From positions 1-64,000 of the forward strand of contig JAABQD010000002.1 of NCBI GenBank assembly GCA_011391635.1: 64,000 bases of DNA, read 5' to 3'. The notes beneath the pieces are model-generated. The model was not told the DNA's origin. It made no database searches and saw nothing but the letters and a program-made list of their open reading frames with translations. The position numbers were made by a program, and so were the translations under genes. Shown here piece after piece: positions 34,030-51,254 of the stretch; positions within the stretch are counted from its first letter, which is position 1; each line of letters begins with the position of its first letter. The stretch is from Sulfurimonas sp. GTDB taxonomy: Bacteria > Campylobacterota > Campylobacteria > Campylobacterales > Sulfurimonadaceae.

Positions 34030-35337
34030 CTAACTTCTCCTTGTGTTTTGTCGCACGGAGACTATGAATTGGTAGATTAGGTAGGCTATGGTTATTTTGA
34101 AAATCAACATCTCAAATGTTATATCTTTTCCCAATTTCCCAAATGGATTTATTTTGTCTGCAACTGCGTTAAAAATACTTGCATAACTACAATCAGAAAT
34201 AAATTTCAAATAATAAAGTTGCAAAACGCCTACATAAAATATTTTACATATATGACTGATTCCACATTTTTTATAAAAAAGTGATAATGTAATTAGTATT
34301 CCCATCACATTGACAGAATGAAAAAATAGCCAATCCCCAAAACTATAGTCTTGCAAATTGATTTGAATATATGTAAGATAAAAAAAGCTTATTGAGAATA
34401 TCCAAATAATTGGCAATACAGGGTCTTGCGAGTGGTTTGAACTAATTCCATGCAATTTGAAAATAATGTAGTCAGTAAAAGTTTTTAAATCTCTTTTTTC
34501 TTTAATCTCATTATCTAATTCATCCTCCCGCTTTTTCATCTCCAATTCATAAAATTTATTAGCTTCAATAATATTGTTTTGTTTTTCAAAACTATTTTTT
34601 ATTTTTCTTGCCGTTTCTCTATTGGCTACTTCTGTTTTAATTTTTAAAAAATCTACATCCTTATAAAAGGTTGCTGTTTCTAAATTTATTTCTTGTGAAC
34701 ATTCTGCTTCATTGAAAAAAGTCTTCTCCTCAAAAGATGTATATCTAAAATTTGTTTTACCCTTAAATTTACATTTTACAAAAGCAGCTCCAGCTTCAAA
34801 AATCGTATTTTTAAACGACACAGTATTTTTAAAAGTTGTGCCTGTAAAATCGACAAAATCTTCAAAAGTGGAGCCTGTAAGGTTTAAACATTCCATATTT
34901 TTTTTAAGAATCTCAAATTTACCCTTCGCAATCGACTTGCTCATTGTTGCTTTCTTGATCTTTGAATTTTTATCTTTATTAATTTTTAAAGCATTTAAAA
35001 TACAGTTTTTAAAAACTATCTCTTCTATTTCACTAATTAAACATAACTGTTGAGAATCAGATTCATTAGGAACAGCCTTTGAAGTGATTTTTTCAATAGT
35101 TGTTGGCATTTCGTAAAAGCGACTATCGCCGTCACTACTATCTTCTTTGATTCTTGTAATTTCTAGATTATCCCTAAATATCAACTCTGCAATATCGGAA
35201 AAATCAAAATTTTGAAAGGTTAATTTTTTGCCTTCTAGCGTTAAAGCATTATAAGTATCTAGCTCTAAAGAGTGTTCTTGTTCGTTATAGATTTCTTCAA
35301 AACGAAACACTTTATTAACTTTTTCTTTCTTAGTCAT
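34030..35337 (-). CDS. Pentapeptide-repeat protein with C-terminal membrane domain
   Basis: 435 residues. Residues about 145-235 are A(D/N)LXX-type pentapeptide repeats (NLTGSTFEDFVDFTGTTF and onward). A charged coiled helix follows (about 245-300), then four hydrophobic segments (WIFSISFFYLTYIQI; VNVMGILITLSLFY; others). Similar proteins of this plan have been suggested to be channels, but that is weak. The ATG overlaps the toxin stop as TAATG at 35335-35339, so it is translationally coupled to a RelE-like toxin. There is no dispersed motif in this or the two toxin-antitoxin genes. Confidence 0.85.
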   Translation of the reverse strand: MTKKEKVNKVFRFEEIYNEQEHSLELDTYNALTLEGKKLTFQNFDFSDIAELIFRDNLEITRIKEDSSDGDSRFYEMPTTIEKITSKAVPNESDSQQLCLISEIEEIVFKNCILNALKINKDKNSKIKKATMSKSIAKGKFEILKKNMECLNLTGSTFEDFVDFTGTTFKNTVSFKNTIFEAGAAFVKCKFKGKTNFRYTSFEEKTFFNEAECSQEINLETATFYKDVDFLKIKTEVANRETARKIKNSFEKQNNIIEANKFYELEMKKREDELDNEIKEKRDLKTFTDYIIFKLHGISSNHSQDPVLPIIWIFSISFFYLTYIQINLQDYSFGDWLFFHSVNVMGILITLSLFYKKCGISHICKIFYVGVLQLYYLKFISDCSYASIFNAVADKINPFGKLGKDITFEMLIFKITIAYLIYQFIVSVRQNTRRS

Positions 35338-35597
35338 TAATACACCTCTTTCCTATGCCCAACTCGGACAACTATGATTATAAGTTCTTCATCTTTTACC
35401 TGAAAAACGACTCTGTATTGGTTTATACGTAATCTAAACTTCCCTTTATATTCGCCTTGAAGCGGTTTGATGTTGTTTTTTAAAATATCTGGATTTGTGA
35501 CTAAAAGAAGAAGTTTTTCTTTGATGATTTTTTGGGCGGGTGTGTCTAGTTTGGCGAACTCTTTTTTTGCACTGCTTAAAAAGTGGAGTTCATACAT
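35337..35597 (-). CDS. RelE/ParE-family toxin
   Basis: 86-residue toxin. YELHFLSSAKKEFAKLD at the N-terminus, PLQGEYKGKFRLRINQYRVVFQV in the middle and the end VVRVGHRKEVY match RelE mRNA interferases. It lies 4 bases after the antitoxin and overlaps the pentapeptide gene downstream. Confidence 0.92.
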   Translation of the reverse strand: MYELHFLSSAKKEFAKLDTPAQKIIKEKLLLLVTNPDILKNNIKPLQGEYKGKFRLRINQYRVVFQVKDEELIIIVVRVGHRKEVY

Positions 35598-39931: not shown

Positions 39932-41356
39932 TTAGCCTAGTTTCGCTTTTAAGAGTTCATTCACAGTTTGCGGATTCGCACTCCCTTTGGACTCTTTCAT
40001 AACCTGCCCTACAAAGAAGCCAAAAAGTTTATCTTTTCCACTTCTGTACTCCTCAGCTTTATCCCCATTTGCAGCGATAACAGCATCACAAATCGCTTCA
40101 ATCGCACCTGTGTCGCTTACTTGTTTGAGTCCTAGTTTCTCGATAACGCTATCGACATCCGTATCATTTTCCATCAAATAATCAAGGACATCTTTTGCCG
40201 CTTTTCCACTGATTGTGCCATCTTCGATGCGTTTGACTAAAAAGCCAAGCTTCTGTGCATCCACTGGCGAATTTGAGATATTCATCTCACCTTTGAGACG
40301 CCCTTGAAGTTCAGTCGTGAGCCATGTTAAAGCATTTTTAGCACTGATTCCACATGCCATCATCGCTTCAAAAAAGTGTGCCATCTCTACTGAAGAGGTA
40401 AGAACACTCGCACTGTACTCATTCATGCCATACTCGCTTACAAATCGAGCCATTTTTTGGTCTGGAAGCTCAGGAATCACGCTAAATTGCTCCAACATCG
40501 CATCAGTAACTACAGCTTTAAGTAAATCCGGCTCTGGAAAATAGCGATAATCCGCCGCTTCCTCTTTTCCACGCATAGAACGCGTTTCTTGTTTAGTTTG
40601 GTCAAAAAGTCTCGTTTCTTGAACTATCTCTTTATCGTACACACCATCTTCCCACGCTTCACACTGACGAGCTACTTCAAGCTCGATAGCTTTTTGGATG
40701 AACTTAAAGGAGTTGATATTTTTTATCTCTACACGCGTATAAAGTTTTTCATCCCCTTTTGGACGGATAGAGACATTCACATCCACACGGAATGAACCCT
40801 CTTGCATATTTGCATCGCCGATATCAAGATAACGGATGATAGAGTGAAGTTTTTTGAGGTACAAAATCGCCTCATCCGCACTTCGCATATCAGGCTCAGA
40901 AACTATCTCCAAAAGAGGTGTTCCAGCACGGTTTAAATCCACTTTGGAGATATCGCCATCATGGATATTTTTTCCCGCATCCGCCTCAATGTGTGCACGA
41001 TTAATACGGATAGTTTTATGTGAACCATCTTCAAAATCGATACGAAGTTTTCCATGCTCCACTATCGGAGTATAAAGCTGAGTGATTTGATATGCCGATG
41101 GGCTATCAGGATAGAAGTAAGACTTTCTATCAAAATAAGATGTTTGATTGATTGTCGCTTCAATTGCACGACCAAGCATAATAGATTTGTGTAAAACTTC
41201 TTTATTGAGAACAGGCAAAGCCCCTGGAAGAGCTAAACAAGTCGGACAAGTATTTGTATTTTGTTTGTGATTAAAACTCGTAGCACACGAGCAAAAAAGT
41301 TTAGTTTTTGTATTGAGTTGCACATGGACTTCAAGTCCTATAACTGTTTCAAACAT
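39932..41356 (-). CDS. gatB: Asp/Glu-tRNA(Asn/Gln) amidotransferase subunit B
   Basis: Subunit of the GatCAB complex that converts Glu-tRNA(Gln) and Asp-tRNA(Asn). The N-terminus [22 protein letters not shown], a zinc motif with [24 protein letters not shown] and [10 protein letters not shown] are diagnostic. The YqeY-like C-terminal tail domain is present. Length 474 is standard. A dispersed motif is at 40350. Confidence 0.97.
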
Positions 41357-41447
41357 AAGTTTCCTTGAATTAAAATTTATAATATAAGAGGTGGATTCTA
41401 TCTAATTAAAGCTTTCAACTCTCATAAGTAGATGTTCAGTTTTATAT

Positions 41448-44400
41448 TCACAGTCTATTTTTAAAAACTATTTTACAAAGTGAATGACGAATGTTTTTAC
41501 TATTTTGTGAATCATACCAAACAACAACATATTTAAGTGTAACTCCATCGACAACATAACCATTAACAAACTTTTCTTCTAGTTTTTCCTGAAAAGATGC
41601 TGAAAATGTAGATATTATCCTCCCCTTATGAACTATACAATAGTTTTTAAAATTAGGTCGCTTCTCTATCTGCAATTCATCTGAAGCAATAAAATCATTA
41701 TTTTTATAATGTCTATCAACATCAAAGCCAAGACTAATGTCAGACAAACTCATCTCATGTGTAAAAATTTTGTTTTCTAAAAGATAATTTTTCGTATATA
41801 AAAAATATTTTGCATACGGTTTTTTATTTTTTAGCTCATTCCCAACTCTTAAAATATGAAGTTCATTTTTTGCTCTGGTCATGCCAACATAATATAATCT
41901 TTTTTTCTCATCAGATGATGGATTCTCACTCACCAAAAGAAAAACTTTATCAAACTCCATCCCTTTAGATTTATGGATTGTTGACACAATTATACTTTTG
42001 TGATAACTTTGAAAATCTTCTAACTTAATCTCATAGATATAAGATTCCCACTGTGAAATATAATAAGTTTCACTTTCACTCAAAAACTTCTCTATTATTT
42101 TTTCCAAAAGTTTTAAATTTGATGACTTTTTATATCTATCTTGTATGATTTTAAGTGCATCATTAAAATACTTTTCTTTATACGAATTCTCATCTAGTAA
42201 AAAACTATTGAGTACATGACCAAATTCGACAAGTTCTACAATATTTTTTAACTCAAATTTTTCTCTTTCTATAATATATTTAGCTTCAATACCATTTTCT
42301 ATAAGTAGTGAGTATATCTGCATTACCTCATCATTTGTGTATGTAAGTATCGCTATATTTTCATATATTTCTTCTTGTTTTATTAAATCTATTACAGCAG
42401 GAACTAAACTTTGAGCATATGGGTATGAGTGAACTTCAACACTACCGCGTTTTGATGAATTAGCGTAAAGCTTGTGTGTTTTATATCTTTTTTTTATCAT
42501 GCCAGCGAAATCATTGGAGTACTCAACTATATCCGTATTACTCCTAAAATTACATAGCAGTTCATACTGTTTAAAAGACATCTCGTTCTCTTCGTTTTGA
42601 GCGAATTCTTCTCTAAATTTATCTATATATGTAACACTTGCACCTGCATGCTCATTGATGCACTGATCATCATCTCCAACAGCAATAATCTTCAACTCTT
42701 CATTACTAGCTTTATATATAGCTTTTAGAAGTTCAAAACTATTTTCATTTACATCTTGAAACTCATCCAAAACGAGGACGGTGATATGTGGAAGAGCTAT
42801 ATCTCCATCATTTATCTGCTTTGTTGCCTCTTCTATAGCTTTATTTAATATATCCTCATCGCCGTTTTTTGCTACTCGAGCTATCAGCTTTAAAGCAAAA
42901 GAGTGAAATGTTTGAATCTCTATGTCATACGATAATGCACCTATTAGATTATTTAATCTACTTTTAAACTCCCATCTTGCTGTCTTTGAAAATGTAAGCA
43001 TCATAAATTGTTCAGGTTTTATATCTTCAGTCAATATAAGAGAAGCTATCTTATGCACTAAAACTTTTGTTTTTCCACTTCCTGGTCCTGCTAAAATCAT
43101 CATTGCTTTAGTTTTTTTATCTTCTATTATCTCTCTTTGCTCGTCTGACATCTCTTCAAAAAGTTTCTTAAACCTTTTTTTTGTTATAGGTTGAGAAAGT
43201 TGCTCTTTTAAAAGATTATATTGTTTTTTAAATTTGTCATAAGGCAATGTAAAATAATCTTTTAAAAAAAGTATCGCTTTATAGTCATCATTTTGCAATC
43301 TTTTTGCATACTCTCCCATAATATGGATAGATTCTATCTTTGTTTTGTAATGCTCCGCTAATCTATTTTTATATTCAACTAATGTATATTTTTTATTGCC
43401 TGATGCTTTTTCTTCCTTATAAATACTCATAGGGGAATAACTAATAAATCTGCCATTTAAAAGCTCTAAAATATTTAGATGATGAAGATATAACAAAGTT
43501 CTATCTATCTCTTTAATAGATATTTTTTTGTCTAATTTATCGTATAAGTCTTTTAAAGAAAATTCTATTGTCTCTTTTTTTCTAGGTTCAATATTATCTG
43601 TAAAAATAGCTATAAGCTTATTTGCTATTGTGTGCTTGGTCAATATTAATTCTTTAATGTTATTACTATTTTCAAATTTAAAATACCACAAGTTTTGTTC
43701 TCTATTTGTTCTTTTAAACATAAAATTAGATTTATCTTTCCAGTTTTTTATTATTGATTTTATTAACTCAATACTGTTTTTAGTTATAACTTTTTTGCTA
43801 TGAAGATATTCATTCAACTCTCGCATAGATATTTGTGAGTTCATTAGAGAATCCATATAATCAAAGAGCAAGAGTTCTATAGTCTGCACATTTTTAAATT
43901 CATTTACAGCTGTTTTATCTATTTCCAAACTTAAATCTTTACTATTTCCTAAAATATTCATCTCTTTTAGTTGATTAATACTCAGTGAAATATCATGCTT
44001 TTCATATCCAAGTATGTATGCGAGTTCATCTACTTGTATTGATTTTATCTTACCTCTTCCTATAATACTTTGTAAAACTAATGTCAATTTTTGTTTTTCT
44101 TCACTGTTATAACTAGAGTTATTTAAATTTTTGTGAAACTCTTCCATACAATTAGAAGCGATAGAGTCAGCAAAAAAGTTTGTTTTATTCCTCTTTCTGC
44201 TTATATACTTTTCTCTCTCTAACTCAAGCAAAATGGTCTTTACCTTTGTACTATAATCCAAAGAGCTGTCTTCTACATCCCAACCTGCTTCTTTTGCTAA
44301 CTCAAAAGCTGTTTTATTTACTACATTATTTTTTGAATTTTTTATAACTCTTAGTATAGAATTAATCTCACTAGCAGTAAGTTTAGAACGATTTAAAGAG

Positions 44401-46289
44401 ATAAAATGTTTATCTAAATCATTTTCATCAAAAAGTATTGGGCAGTAAGCGTTTAGGTCTTTATTTCTAGCACCTCTTCCCGCTTCTTGTGCATAACTTT
44501 CTAGAGAATCAGATACCTCATAATGTATGACATTCATAATATTTGATTTATCTACCCCCATGCCAAACGCTGTAGTCGCTACTATAATGTCAATCTTGTC
44601 CTCTAAATAATCCTTAAGTATATTCATCTTCTCTCCAGATTCTATCTTAGAGTGAAATGATTTGACATTTTTTTCTGTATCTAGTGATAACTGTTCAGCA
44701 ATTTTATCGCACTCTTTTGTAGATGATGGAATATATATTAATGTTGAACCATCATGTTCATTTAGTATTTGTAATAAATCTTTATATTTATTTTTGCTTT
44801 GAGATTCTATAGATTTATATGTTAAATTTTTTCTCTCTGGAACTGCAAAATACTTATCAAGTTTTATGTCTAAACCATCTAAAAAAAACTTCTCAATATC
44901 ATCTATAACACTAGGTTTAGCTGTTGCTGTAAAACAAGATATAGGAATACTGTCTTGAAAAGGCTTAGCCTCTATAAGTTCCTTGATATATTCACAAATA
45001 TAGTAATAATCTTGTCTAAAATCATTCCCCCAAGTAGATAAGCAGTGTACTTCATCTATAACAAATCTTTCTATTAGTCTATTTTTTAAAATTGCAAAAA
45101 TTGAGTTCGAACGAAGAGATTCAGGAGCAATATATAAAATATCCGCTTCTCCATTTATAACAAGTTCTATAGCTTCACTTCGTTCTAGGGGGCTTAAAAA
45201 TCCACTTATAGCGACTGCTTTATAGTTAGCAACATTAGCATTAAAACTCTTTATATGGTCCTCTATCAGTGCTTGAAGAGGAGAGATAACAACTGTGAGA
45301 GATTTATAAGAAGAAGATTTATAAATTGCTGGTAACCAAAAAGTAAATGTTTTACCTCCACCTGTTGGTAATATGCACAAAAAGGAATCATCTCGTAATG
45401 AAGCTTCTACTATCTCCCTTTGAGAAATAGTAGGACTATCAAGAATACTAGCATTTAATCTAGGAAATTCATTAAATTCATCAAATCCAAATACTTCCTT
45501 TGAAAACTCACTTAAATTATCATTCGCTATATCAATATCAAAGCATAACTTTTTTTGGATATTGACTATATTTGGATAATCAAACAGTACTTTTGGTGGA
45601 TGTGATTTTATCTCAATATGTGGCGTTAATAAAGCAAGTATATATACTAATTCTACAGGATTAGATTCAATTAGTTCTTTTAAATAATCTTTATTTACAA
45701 TTCTCTTTTGATGTGTATCTAAAATCAAATCATATATATTTATTTTTTCTAAAATAGATAGTTTTAAACTCTTTGTTAGATATATGAAAAAACCCTTAAA
45801 ATACAATTCATCCTTGAGTAGTGAATAAAATAAATTTTGAGTATCAGATTCTAAAGACTTAAACTTATCTTCGAGTTTCATAAAAAGTTTCAAAGTAATT
45901 ATAGAATCTTCTACTGGATTATTTTTAAAATCATCTTCACTTTTGTAATTCTTTGGTAAGCTATGGTGAGTTTTTTCATTAAACAATAACAAAGACAAGG
46001 GTAAAGTATCTATAATATTGTACTTTTCAAGATAGTTACTTAATGAAGTATCTTTTAATTTTTCTAAATCAAAATTGATAAAATTATGCCCTGCTATAAA
46101 ATCTGATTTGATAGAAGATATAAAATCTATACTTTGAGAAATAGAAGATGTTCTAAGCTCTCTATCTTTATAAATAAATCCTAACTCATGTATTATATTT
46201 TTAGTTTTACTTACTTCTATATCACAAAATATAATATTTGTATTTTTAGAATAATCACTTAGTAGAATGTCTATCTTCTCTGCATTCAT
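41448..46289 (-). CDS. Giant exonuclease-RecQ-UvrD fusion helicase
   Basis: 1613 residues in one uninterrupted frame. Residues 1-150 are a DEDD-type 3'-5' exonuclease fold (FCDIEVS, FIAGHNFINFDLE, PVEDS). RecQ-like helicase: Walker A PTGGGKT near 310, DEVH near 412, and motif VI region AYAQEAGRGARNKD in variant form (ESYAQEAGRGARNKD). A middle region of about 400 residues is unassigned. UvrD-like helicase: Walker A AGPGSGKT near 1065, DEFQDVNENS, GDDDQCINEH, and STIHKSKGMEFDKVF near 1440, with VGMTRAKNELHI. The C-terminal part is a small folded domain. The start codon overlaps the stop of a decayed nucleotidyltransferase (TAATG). The 4.8-kb gene is AT-rich and has no dispersed motif, which suggests acquisition. 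A role in repair or phage defence is inference. Confidence 0.92.
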   Translation of the reverse strand: MNAEKIDILLSDYSKNTNIIFCDIEVSKTKNIIHELGFIYKDRELRTSSISQSIDFISSIKSDFIAGHNFINFDLEKLKDTSLSNYLEKYNIIDTLPLSLLLFNEKTHHSLPKNYKSEDDFKNNPVEDSIITLKLFMKLEDKFKSLESDTQNLFYSLLKDELYFKGFFIYLTKSLKLSILEKINIYDLILDTHQKRIVNKDYLKELIESNPVELVYILALLTPHIEIKSHPPKVLFDYPNIVNIQKKLCFDIDIANDNLSEFSKEVFGFDEFNEFPRLNASILDSPTISQREIVEASLRDDSFLCILPTGGGKTFTFWLPAIYKSSSYKSLTVVISPLQALIEDHIKSFNANVANYKAVAISGFLSPLERSEAIELVINGEADILYIAPESLRSNSIFAILKNRLIERFVIDEVHCLSTWGNDFRQDYYYICEYIKELIEAKPFQDSIPISCFTATAKPSVIDDIEKFFLDGLDIKLDKYFAVPERKNLTYKSIESQSKNKYKDLLQILNEHDGSTLIYIPSSTKECDKIAEQLSLDTEKNVKSFHSKIESGEKMNILKDYLEDKIDIIVATTAFGMGVDKSNIMNVIHYEVSDSLESYAQEAGRGARNKDLNAYCPILFDENDLDKHFISLNRSKLTASEINSILRVIKNSKNNVVNKTAFELAKEAGWDVEDSSLDYSTKVKTILLELEREKYISRKRNKTNFFADSIASNCMEEFHKNLNNSSYNSEEKQKLTLVLQSIIGRGKIKSIQVDELAYILGYEKHDISLSINQLKEMNILGNSKDLSLEIDKTAVNEFKNVQTIELLLFDYMDSLMNSQISMRELNEYLHSKKVITKNSIELIKSIIKNWKDKSNFMFKRTNREQNLWYFKFENSNNIKELILTKHTIANKLIAIFTDNIEPRKKETIEFSLKDLYDKLDKKISIKEIDRTLLYLHHLNILELLNGRFISYSPMSIYKEEKASGNKKYTLVEYKNRLAEHYKTKIESIHIMGEYAKRLQNDDYKAILFLKDYFTLPYDKFKKQYNLLKEQLSQPITKKRFKKLFEEMSDEQREIIEDKKTKAMMILAGPGSGKTKVLVHKIASLILTEDIKPEQFMMLTFSKTARWEFKSRLNNLIGALSYDIEIQTFHSFALKLIARVAKNGDEDILNKAIEEATKQINDGDIALPHITVLVLDEFQDVNENSFELLKAIYKASNEELKIIAVGDDDQCINEHAGASVTYIDKFREEFAQNEENEMSFKQYELLCNFRSNTDIVEYSNDFAGMIKKRYKTHKLYANSSKRGSVEVHSYPYAQSLVPAVIDLIKQEEIYENIAILTYTNDEVMQIYSLLIENGIEAKYIIEREKFELKNIVELVEFGHVLNSFLLDENSYKEKYFNDALKIIQDRYKKSSNLKLLEKIIEKFLSESETYYISQWESYIYEIKLEDFQSYHKSIIVSTIHKSKGMEFDKVFLLVSENPSSDEKKRLYYVGMTRAKNELHILRVGNELKNKKPYAKYFLYTKNYLLENKIFTHEMSLSDISLGFDVDRHYKNNDFIASDELQIEKRPNFKNYCIVHKGRIISTFSASFQEKLEEKFVNGYVVDGVTLKYVVVWYDSQNSKNIRHSLCKIVFKNRL

Positions 46290-46465
46290 TAAATTAAATT
46301 TCTATTTATATAGGTTTTTAAAGTACTATATATTTTATATAAATCTATATTGCCACTTTTTTTTGTATCATCGACCCTACTTCCAAACAGATAAAGCTTG
46401 GCATGTGGAAAGAAGGAAGTAAAGTGTTTTATAATAGTGTTTTGTTCAAATTCTGTTAGTCTCAT
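46289..46465 (-). pseudogene. Truncated MNT-type nucleotidyltransferase
   Basis: A 58-codon frame beginning MRLTEFEQNTIIKHF. LYLFGSRVDDTKKSGNIDL resembles the GSx(n)DxD active site of minimal nucleotidyltransferases, but the first Asp of GDIDL has become Asn, and the protein ends soon after, about half the usual length. Its stop overlaps the helicase ATG. It looks like the head of an MntA-like antitoxin gene cut off by insertion of the helicase. The dispersed motif lies within it at 46400. Confidence 0.65.
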
Positions 46466-46501
46466 GCAACGATTCTACATAAAATTTAATTATATAAAGC
46501 T

Positions 46502-46514
46502 TTGGCATGTGGAA
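46502..46514. repeat. Dispersed-motif copy just downstream of the 46520 gene
   Basis: A full 13-base copy, TTGGCATGTGGAA, in the gap after the minus-strand gene ending at 46520 and before the nucleotidyltransferase remnant. It is unpaired here, although another copy in the same orientation lies about 100 bases to the left at 46398-46410. Confidence 0.8.
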
Positions 46515-46519
46515 CTTTT

Positions 46520-46912
46520 TTACTCTTCATCTATGAGTATCACTTTAATATTGTATATTTTTGCGACTGCGTTCAGTCTGCTTATAAACTTCTCATCTCC
46601 TGCTCCTGCGATAAGCCCGACAGCTGGTTTTTTACCGCTCATCTGTGCGTAGTAGAGAGCTTGACCAATTCCTTCCGCCCATTTTTTGGCAAAATCTACT
46701 TCGATTGCGTACTCTGAGGTAAGGCAGTCGATTCTGGCTTTGTCTTCTAGGACAACTTCCATCGTACCGCCGAGTGCATTGCACATTTTGGTCTGGTAAT
46801 ATTTTTCATTGTGGTTTGCAATAGAGAGTTTTTGGGATGTGATATCCTCTTCAAAAAGAAAGTAAAACAGAGCGACAATAAGGGAAAATAGAATGGAAAC
46901 TATTTTTTTCAT
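46520..46912 (-). CDS. Exported or membrane-tethered protein with PD-(D/E)XK-like core
   Basis: 130 residues. One N-terminal hydrophobic segment (IVSILFSLIVALFYFLF) is followed by a compact domain with E52, D62, E71, D73 and K76 in ARIDCLTSEYAIEVDFAKKW and a helix IGQALYYAQ. This order (D, then ExD and K, then Gln) resembles restriction-endonuclease-like folds. If so, it is an unusual periplasmic nuclease or nuclease-like protein. It lies 5 bases after the 46918 gene. Confidence 0.7.
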   Translation of the reverse strand: MKKIVSILFSLIVALFYFLFEEDITSQKLSIANHNEKYYQTKMCNALGGTMEVVLEDKARIDCLTSEYAIEVDFAKKWAEGIGQALYYAQMSGKKPAVGLIAGAGDEKFISRLNAVAKIYNIKVILIDEE

Positions 46913-50043: not shown

Positions 50044-51174
50044 TTACTCTAAAACTATCTCATAACAGATATTTCTTCCGCTTGTTCCCTCTTTTTGCCT
50101 TATACATCCCATCTCAAGCAGTTGTGTTATATCTCGTGAAGCAGTAGTTGAAGCTGCATTGGCTAGGCTCATATACTTTTTTTTACTTAAGTTTCCTTTG
50201 AAATTTTCAATGCCGATATCCAGAATAAAGTTCAGCACTTTTGTCTGTCGTGTATTGAGATTTTCGTTTTTATATTTGTCCCAAAAATTTGTTTTATCCA
50301 CGATAGTGTCTAACTTTTTTTTCGTTTGCTTCAGTGCTGTGTATAAAGTAGATAAAAACCATTCACACCAAAGAGTAATATCAAGCTGATTCTCCACTTT
50401 TTTGATGTATCCAGTCGTGTGTTCGAGGACTTTATAGTAATTTTTTCTATCCGCATGGATGGCACTTGACATAGAGTAAAGTCTTGAAACTTTAGAGTTT
50501 TCTATATTTGAGAGTACCAAATCGGTAATTGCTCTGGCAATCCTGCCGTTTCCATCATCAAAGGGATGAATAATAACAAACCAAAGATGTGCGATACAAG
50601 CTTTTATCAAGCTTGATGGCGTTGTGTTGAACCAGTTTAAAAACTGTTGCATCTCTTTTTCTACTCTCTCTTTTGGAGGTGCTTCATAAAAAACCTCTTC
50701 TCCTCCAGCGATAGAACCTACTATTTGCATTGTCTCTTCACCTCGAAACGATGCCGTATTGATTTTGTAAAATCCGCTGTAGCCTTTTGGAAAAAGAGCA
50801 TTATGCCAACCAAAGAGTCGCTCTAGAGTGAGCGTATCATGATGATTTGTATTTGCATCTATCAGTATTGCTATAAGATTATCAGCTACTTCATCTATCT
50901 TGTTAGAATTTCCCTCTTTAAAACCAAGTTTTCTTTGAATGGAAGCCTTTACGCTGTCACGGTTGAGCATCTCCCCTTCTATCGCAGAAGTGTTCATCGC
51001 TTCACTCATTAAAGCATCAAATTGTCTTTGTGCAATATTTTCTTTATCCATGATTTGCGTTATGGCTATGAGATACCCTTGTTCTAACGATACTTTTTGA
51101 ATAAGTTCTTCAAGCTTTTTGAAATCGTAAGTAAAATTTGGATAATTATCTTGTTGCCAAATCCAGCGTTTCAT
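50044..51174 (-). CDS. Fic-domain protein with DUF4172 and winged helix
   Basis: 376 residues from MKRWIWQQDNYPNFTYD, the usual start of the DUF4172 domain; an upstream ATG would add 10 residues and has a poorer ribosome site. The Fic motif HPFDDGNGR is intact near residue 203. The inhibitory motif appears to be S-x-I-E-G (TSAIEGE) near residue 65. The C-terminus is a winged-helix domain (YMSLANAASTTASRDITQLLEMG). Fic enzymes AMPylate targets; the winged helix suggests autoregulation at the palindromes upstream. Confidence 0.92.
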   Translation of the reverse strand: MKRWIWQQDNYPNFTYDFKKLEELIQKVSLEQGYLIAITQIMDKENIAQRQFDALMSEAMNTSAIEGEMLNRDSVKASIQRKLGFKEGNSNKIDEVADNLIAILIDANTNHHDTLTLERLFGWHNALFPKGYSGFYKINTASFRGEETMQIVGSIAGGEEVFYEAPPKERVEKEMQQFLNWFNTTPSSLIKACIAHLWFVIIHPFDDGNGRIARAITDLVLSNIENSKVSRLYSMSSAIHADRKNYYKVLEHTTGYIKKVENQLDITLWCEWFLSTLYTALKQTKKKLDTIVDKTNFWDKYKNENLNTRQTKVLNFILDIGIENFKGNLSKKKYMSLANAASTTASRDITQLLEMGCIRQKEGTSGRNICYEIVLE

Positions 51175-51191
51175 AAAGTTTATTCCTTTTG

Positions 51192-51254
51192 TGGTACGAT
51201 TCATAACTATAATCGTACCATAATTGGTATGAAAAACTCAATTTTTCGTACCAT
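51192..51254 (-). promoter_or_regulatory. Repeated operator upstream of the Fic gene
   Basis: TGGTACGATT (51192-51201) and AATCGTACCA (51211-51220) are a perfect 10-base inverted repeat. A GGTATGA half-site follows (about 51226-51232), and another CGTACCAT half-site is at 51247-51254. On the minus strand TTGAGT and TACGAT can serve as -35 and -10, so the repeats span the promoter. Confidence 0.6.

Follow-up and report, generated by a model that had tools for sequence, protein, structure and literature searches.

The window that we analysed, a 64,000-nucleotide stretch of Sulfurimonas DNA, contains a gene (41448..46289, minus strand) whose product unites RecQ and UvrD motors with a predicted DEDD-type exonuclease on one polypeptide, and which belongs to a conserved family of accessory genes that move horizontally. 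The open reading frame runs from an ATG at 46289 to 41448 with zero internal stops and encodes 1,613 amino acids, in the order DnaQ/DEDD-type exonuclease domain, RecQ motor, approximately 400 unmatched residues, and UvrD/Rep-type motor. This agrees with an earlier note on the same DNA, which had claimed exonuclease, RecQ and UvrD parts in one 1,613-residue protein; the intact frame, the Pfam and NCBIfam matches to the motors, and the DEDD motifs and structural model all bear the claim out. An alignment of 24 homologues served to build AlphaFold models, which are confident, with a mean pLDDT of 83.7 for the N-terminal 660 amino acids and 85.5 for the C-terminal 989 amino acids.

To survey the phylum we used the middle region of the protein as query, chosen because ordinary RecQ and UvrD proteins lack such a segment. 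The fusion gene was found in 24 of 397 Campylobacterota genomes, its own genome counted, and was absent from 94%; nearly all of the 24 carried it in an open frame of approximately 1,570–1,710 amino acids. A scan of GTDB genome contigs, together with direct retrieval, yielded 89 further single-chain, full-length homologues of 1,500–1,875 amino acids with the same domain order, falling into two length classes (approximately 1,600 and 1,730 amino acids) and distributed among the Campylobacterota, Pseudomonadota, Bacteroidota, Bacillota, Mycoplasmatota, Chloroflexota, Planctomycetota, Verrucomicrobiota and other phyla. Because full length is kept in these 89 other frames, a chance joining of domains is excluded, and the combination represents a conserved family rather than an accidental fusion. 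Two findings that would have told against the earlier note, a frameshift or assembly artefact and universal presence as a housekeeping gene, are likewise ruled out, the former by homologues of equal length and domain order and the latter by the low count in the phylum. Ordinary RecQ- or UvrD-type matches were present in all 60 relatives searched, and the Sulfurimonas genome itself has separate RecQ-like and UvrD-like genes besides the fusion gene. There was no full-length match among 50,697 phages, and none at the DNA level between E. coli and a Pseudomonas homologue, a search that a diverged protein could escape. RefSeq plasmid records label such proteins "RecQ family ATP-dependent DNA helicase", and no description of a RecQ-UvrD fusion was found in the literature searched, which lay mostly outside subscription journals.

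The exonuclease domain (residues 17–150; 45840..46241, minus strand) was recognised from its motifs, its AlphaFold topology and a profile-profile match. Three DEDD motifs lie in the first 150 or so residues (D23-x-E25, GHN(x4)D74 and N123-x-P-x-x-D128), and they were invariant or nearly so, first in 24 and then in approximately 87 homologues; in the joint alignment the metal-binding acids were kept in 87/87 (D23), 86/87 (E25), 87/87 (D74) and 88/89 (D128) sequences. The model shows the DnaQ-like order of strands and helices, with low confidence at residues 107–121. Comparison with the RNase_T exonucleases of related genomes gave a global E-value of 4.5e-6 in a single comparison and a local alignment probability of 38%; the domain had no Pfam match and no significant PDB match by sequence. 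With four acids, three motifs, a DnaQ-like fold and a moderate profile match, the domain is a predicted member of the DEDD/DnaQ superfamily. It has neither the His five residues before the last Asp that defines the DEDDh subfamily nor the Tyr four residues before it that defines DEDDy. In 85 of 89 sequences an Asn occupies the DEDDh His position (N123 in the window protein), three have Ser there, and no description of such a DEDD variant was found in the literature searched. Since the metal ligands are kept, which would be surprising in a catalytically dead domain, we postulate a variant active site, in which H109 (present in 86 of 87 sequences) is a possible substitute for the missing His.

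The RecQ motor (residues 289–635; 44385..45425, minus strand) contains the motifs LPTGGGKT, DEVHC, FTATA and QEAGRGAR, and matched the Pfam models DEAD at 289–464 (1.7e-30) and Helicase_C at 501–609 (6e-20). The NCBIfam model recQ_fam (TIGR00614) covers residues 289–634 with 226.4 bits against a cut-off of 219.8, while TIGR01389 (recQ) reached 229.8 of 640 bits and stopped at residue 636. The canonical RecQ zinc motif was not seen, and there was no RQC or HRDC Pfam match in the protein; together with the shortfall against TIGR01389, this indicates a member of the RecQ motor family rather than a RecQ equivalog. The best PDB fold matches of this part were RecQ, BLM and RECQL5, with WRN also among the matches, and in 90 aligned proteins the Walker A, DExH and arginine residues that were scored varied little or not at all. 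The set of motifs (Q, Walker A, DExH, arginine) is thus that of a complete RecQ-type motor.

The second motor (residues 1041–1480; 41850..43169, minus strand) carries AGPGSGKT, DEFQD, GDDDQ, NFRS, HKSKGMEF and VGMTRAK, and was matched above cut-off by UvrD-helicase (PF00580) from residue 1047 (9e-31) and by UvrD_C (PF13361) at 1383–1479 (2e-15). Its top PDB fold matches were UvrD, PcrA and Rep, with RecB, AddA, AdnB and GajB also matched, and the Walker, DExxQ, GDDDQ and TRA positions were invariant or nearly so in the joint alignment. Both motor domains and the SF1 motifs are present, which makes this a complete UvrD/Rep-type SF1A motor. The earlier note was therefore correct in describing motors of opposite superfamily type, RecQ in SF2 and UvrD in SF1, but the opposition does not extend to direction of travel: both families travel 3'-to-5' along single strands, the two motors here would accordingly load on 3' single-stranded DNA, and this common polarity matters for the mechanism proposed below.

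The remaining parts of the chain resisted assignment to known families. A helical linker in the AlphaFold secondary structure (residues 151–288; 45426..45839, minus strand) has no Pfam match. The middle region (residues 636–1040; 43170..44384, minus strand), noted earlier as about 400 unassigned residues between the motors, is helix-rich and includes a conserved KTALLELE segment; no Pfam domain lies inside it and no PADLOC model matched it when searched alone, so that the profile searches that the note had called for leave it family-specific. The C-terminal tail (residues 1481–1613; 41451..41849, minus strand), of approximately 130 residues, is beta-rich in the model and matched no family. PADLOC model C3a193 ("poss. 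alt. Cas3") aligned with residues 238–994 of the window protein; because the middle alone has no PADLOC match, and because the alignment stops close to the motor in two further members of the family, we regard this as a generic helicase match and reject the alternative Cas3 assignment. A promoter and terminator scan performed no better than on shuffled sequences.

Comparison with a congener (G021) revealed that the gene lies in an inserted block (41357..46519), bounded by gatB (39932..41356, minus strand), a housekeeping gene found in 37 of 38 genomes, and by a 130-aa gene (46520..46912, minus strand). In G021 the site is empty, with 97 bp between gatB and a 131-aa gene, compared to 5,163 bp in the window; with only 24 of 397 genomes positive, this substantiates the accessory-looking slot proposed earlier. 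The 130-aa gene had no Pfam or NCBIfam match, and just 3 of 40 relatives have it; its sequence looks somewhat nuclease-like (AIEVDFAKKWAEGIGQA). Beside the fusion gene is a truncated, antitoxin-like MNT/Polbeta nucleotidyltransferase fragment (46304..46465, minus strand), 54 amino acids long against a 93-position family model, with a sub-threshold match (E=0.005) and no toxin partner, which confirms, as a fragment, the decayed antitoxin described in the earlier note. A 13-bp repeat read by eye, TTGGCATGTGGAA, occurs inside this fragment and just downstream of the stop of the 130-aa gene, and is possibly a trace of how the accessory block was exchanged.

Sequence relationships indicate that the fusion gene has moved between lineages. 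The closest homologues of the window protein belong to a different genus of the family (70% identity, G398) and to a different family (66%, G430), and a homologue on the Aliarcobacter cibarius plasmid pACIB is also 66% identical, while copies in congeners share approximately 48% or less. For gatB the pattern is reversed, with 80–90% identity within the genus and approximately 71% in family f9. Forced monophyly of six same-genus copies was rejected (AU test, p=0.00016), and the GC content of the fusion gene (27.8%) is the lowest of 36 window ORFs compared (mean 36.3%). Broken copies were also observed, as fragments (G041), a C-terminal half (G031), a frame break (G368), a stop (G025), a split gene in Stutzerimonas and an IS-interrupted gene in a Nostoc plasmid, some of which may be sequencing errors of draft genomes. 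The fusion gene is an accessory, horizontally moving gene. One genome of the same genus (G374) has two divergent fusion genes, each beside an HNH/methyltransferase module that is split at one locus and fused at the other. Elsewhere in the window, a SoFic-like Fic-family gene (50044-51204, minus strand; PADLOC 2e-40) between two housekeeping genes is likely a second accessory gene, and another accessory patch is likely at 34030-35597, where a low-GC (28.4%) membrane protein gene, pentapeptide-repeat-like by look (34030-35337, minus strand), adjoins a RelE-like toxin gene (35337-35597, minus strand).

Clustering of 852 neighbour genes revealed no universal operon partner, and none of the genes was shared by the majority of loci; the window's copy is solitary, as are most others, and the genes nearby vary from locus to locus. 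Within this variation certain genes recur. A SauUSI-like type IV enzyme (PLD, helicase and DUF3427 domains) is near the fusion gene in seven loci from several phyla, three of them related Rhodobacterales, and is immediately upstream on the same strand in three of the seven; one such neighbour matched the PADLOC model mREase_IV at 4e-199. The first neighbour cluster had mixed SauUSI-like helicases with methyltransferase-HNH proteins by way of a fused protein, and profile searches separated them; a further gene (L067 gene 10) scores on the SauUSI profile but resembles type I HsdR and was therefore left out of the count. The fused protein, in an Accumulibacter MAG (L161:1149-5009, plus strand), combines a methyltransferase with the SauUSI-like PLD-helicase-DUF3427 architecture directly upstream of the fusion gene. 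HNH and/or methyltransferase modules occur in six loci. At one locus (L074) an HNH gene overlaps the start of the fusion gene by 4 bp, and in two different families a DUF2779 gene overlaps this start, so that at some loci the fusion gene is probably co-translated with a second gene.

Mobile elements provide further context. Of seven plasmid records inspected, four had HipA, BrnT, RES or VapC toxin genes within approximately 10 kb of the fusion gene, and other plasmid copies are near partition or replication genes. On contigs whose viral status is a prediction only, full-length copies have as near neighbours a C5 methylase, an Eco57I-type RM enzyme, or, together with a GIY-YIG-like gene, a TOTE primase-helicase-PLD protein; in one of them (L214:1389-15033, plus strand) the order is SMEK-domain protein, GIY-YIG-like gene, fusion gene, RhuM-like gene and TOTE primase-helicase-PLD protein. 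On the Nostoc sp. C052 plasmid pC052_A (L187:10821-18779, plus strand), an MZB-domain helicase of the MrfA/YprA type follows the fusion gene after approximately 105 bp. A PADLOC case-control tally in the Campylobacterota gave 121 versus 28 matched models in 145 versus 144 genes, which is only suggestive since redundant models, rather than genes or loci, were counted. Homologues scattered over phyla, on plasmids and beside restriction genes give the appearance of a travelling DNA-processing machine. The check for homologues in defence islands that the earlier note had suggested gave a mixed picture: restriction, methyltransferase and toxin-antitoxin neighbours recur, but most copies are alone.

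Several known enzymes share part of this design. In WRN, too, an N-terminal DEDD-type exonuclease, of the DEDDy kind, precedes a RecQ motor in the chain; WRN differs in having no UvrD motor, while the fusion protein has N-x-P-x-x-D as its last exonuclease motif and no recognisable RQC/HRDC order of WRN. RecBCD, AddAB and AdnAB similarly combine two motors and a nuclease in one machine, but their nuclease is of the RecB-type PD-(D/E)XK kind and their SF1 motors are spread over several subunits; the fusion protein had no RecB-type PD-(D/E)XK domain in Pfam searches and reached no RecB or AddA cut-off in NCBIfam. Gabija, a defence system, likewise pairs a UvrD-type helicase with a nuclease, and GajB was among the sequence and fold matches, but Gabija is without RecQ and DEDD domains, and a GajA-type (OLD-nuclease) neighbour was neither recurrent among the 852 clustered genes nor present beside the fusion gene in the window. 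PsyrT and DpdF have RecQ-type motors of anti-phage systems, and their PADLOC models match approximately residues 289–673; these matches end at or just beyond the motor, leaving the middle and the UvrD half uncovered. SauUSI-type type IV enzymes, although recurrent as neighbours, are separate proteins that are not homologous over the length of the fusion protein, and are possibly its functional partners. To our knowledge, none of WRN, RecBCD, AddAB, Gabija, PsyrT, DpdF, DinG and MrfAB has the combination of DEDD, RecQ and UvrD parts. In DinG and MrfA-MrfB a bacterial DEDD exonuclease is fused to an SF2 helicase or cooperates with one (PMC12525004, PMC10889028), but these helicases are XPD-like or MrfA-like rather than RecQ, and there is no second motor.

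Our preferred explanation is that the fusion protein acts as an end- or branch-directed helicase-exonuclease in genome defence, functionally comparable to RecBCD or Gabija, a proposal for which we consider the chances evenly balanced. DEDD exonucleases degrade 3' ends. Going by the properties of the families, both motors would load on a 3' tail and drive 3'-to-5' into the duplex or branch, with the exonuclease trimming the tail behind them, and would unwind the duplex of invading DNA or dismantle its forks, D-loops and recombination intermediates; the trimming, we propose, would destroy the ends needed by recombination-dependent phage or plasmid replication. At some loci a neighbouring nuclease (SauUSI-like, HNH or DUF2779) may cut first, and the fusion enzyme would process the product. 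We put forward more tentatively, and with distinctly more doubt than belief, that these proteins form a new class of prokaryotic defence enzyme, in which one chain combines two helicase motors with a "DEDDn" exonuclease, so called for the near-invariant Asn at the catalytic His position, and which works alone or processes the cuts of such interchangeable nucleases. The defence role is suggested by genomic context, namely the restriction, methyltransferase and toxin-antitoxin neighbours, the mobile elements, gene transfer and decay. This context lends support to the earlier note's idea of a defence candidate, but "single-protein" requires a caveat given the overlapping second gene at some loci. 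Counting against defence are the stand-alone copies, the differing neighbours, a middle region that has no PADLOC match, and the near-invariant Asn, which may signify impaired exonuclease activity.

Accessory and mobile behaviour is also in line with DNA metabolism of the mobile elements themselves, in which the protein would replicate, resolve or recombine the DNA of plasmids, integrative elements or prophages, and chromosomal copies would be relics. Consistent with this, parA/parB, replication initiator or SSB genes adjoin plasmid copies, serine-recombinase-like or phage-like genes are found a short distance away on predicted viral contigs, and transposases are near some copies. Yet many copies, the window's included, have housekeeping genes on both sides and neither integrase nor transfer genes around them, and repeated linkage to restriction enzymes would not be expected, so that we consider maintenance of mobile elements unlikely. 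The domain logic shared with WRN, and with DinG and MrfAB (PMC12525004, PMC10889028), and the MrfA-type helicase directly downstream in Nostoc C052, point instead toward an accessory chromosomal repair or recombination helicase, a bacterial WRN analogue with an added UvrD motor that would act on stalled forks and 3' ends in strains under genotoxic stress. Absence from 94% of sampled relatives is difficult to reconcile with such a role, as is a gene that is plasmid-borne, transferred and repeatedly broken, and we judge it quite improbable. Compatible with any of these functions is a further alternative, that the N-terminal DEDD fold is catalytically dead and serves solely to grip DNA ends, which would make the protein effectively a double helicase. 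With Asn where a catalytic His would stand, the exonuclease could be weak or inactive, and the low model confidence at residues 107–121 is in keeping with this; retention of all four metal-binding acids, the loss of which would be expected in a dead domain, and a nearly invariant H109 that could take over the role make it rather unlikely in our estimation.

If the preferred defence reading is correct, the family would represent a widespread helicase-nuclease of which the PADLOC library (2023) captures no more than the generic motors. Beside RecBCD, AddAB and Gabija, a 3'-5' exonuclease combined with two motors that differ in superfamily yet run in one direction would be an unusual design, and the near-invariant Asn poses a clear enzymological question about DEDD catalysis. 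Each of the predicted activities is within reach of a point mutation in one gene.
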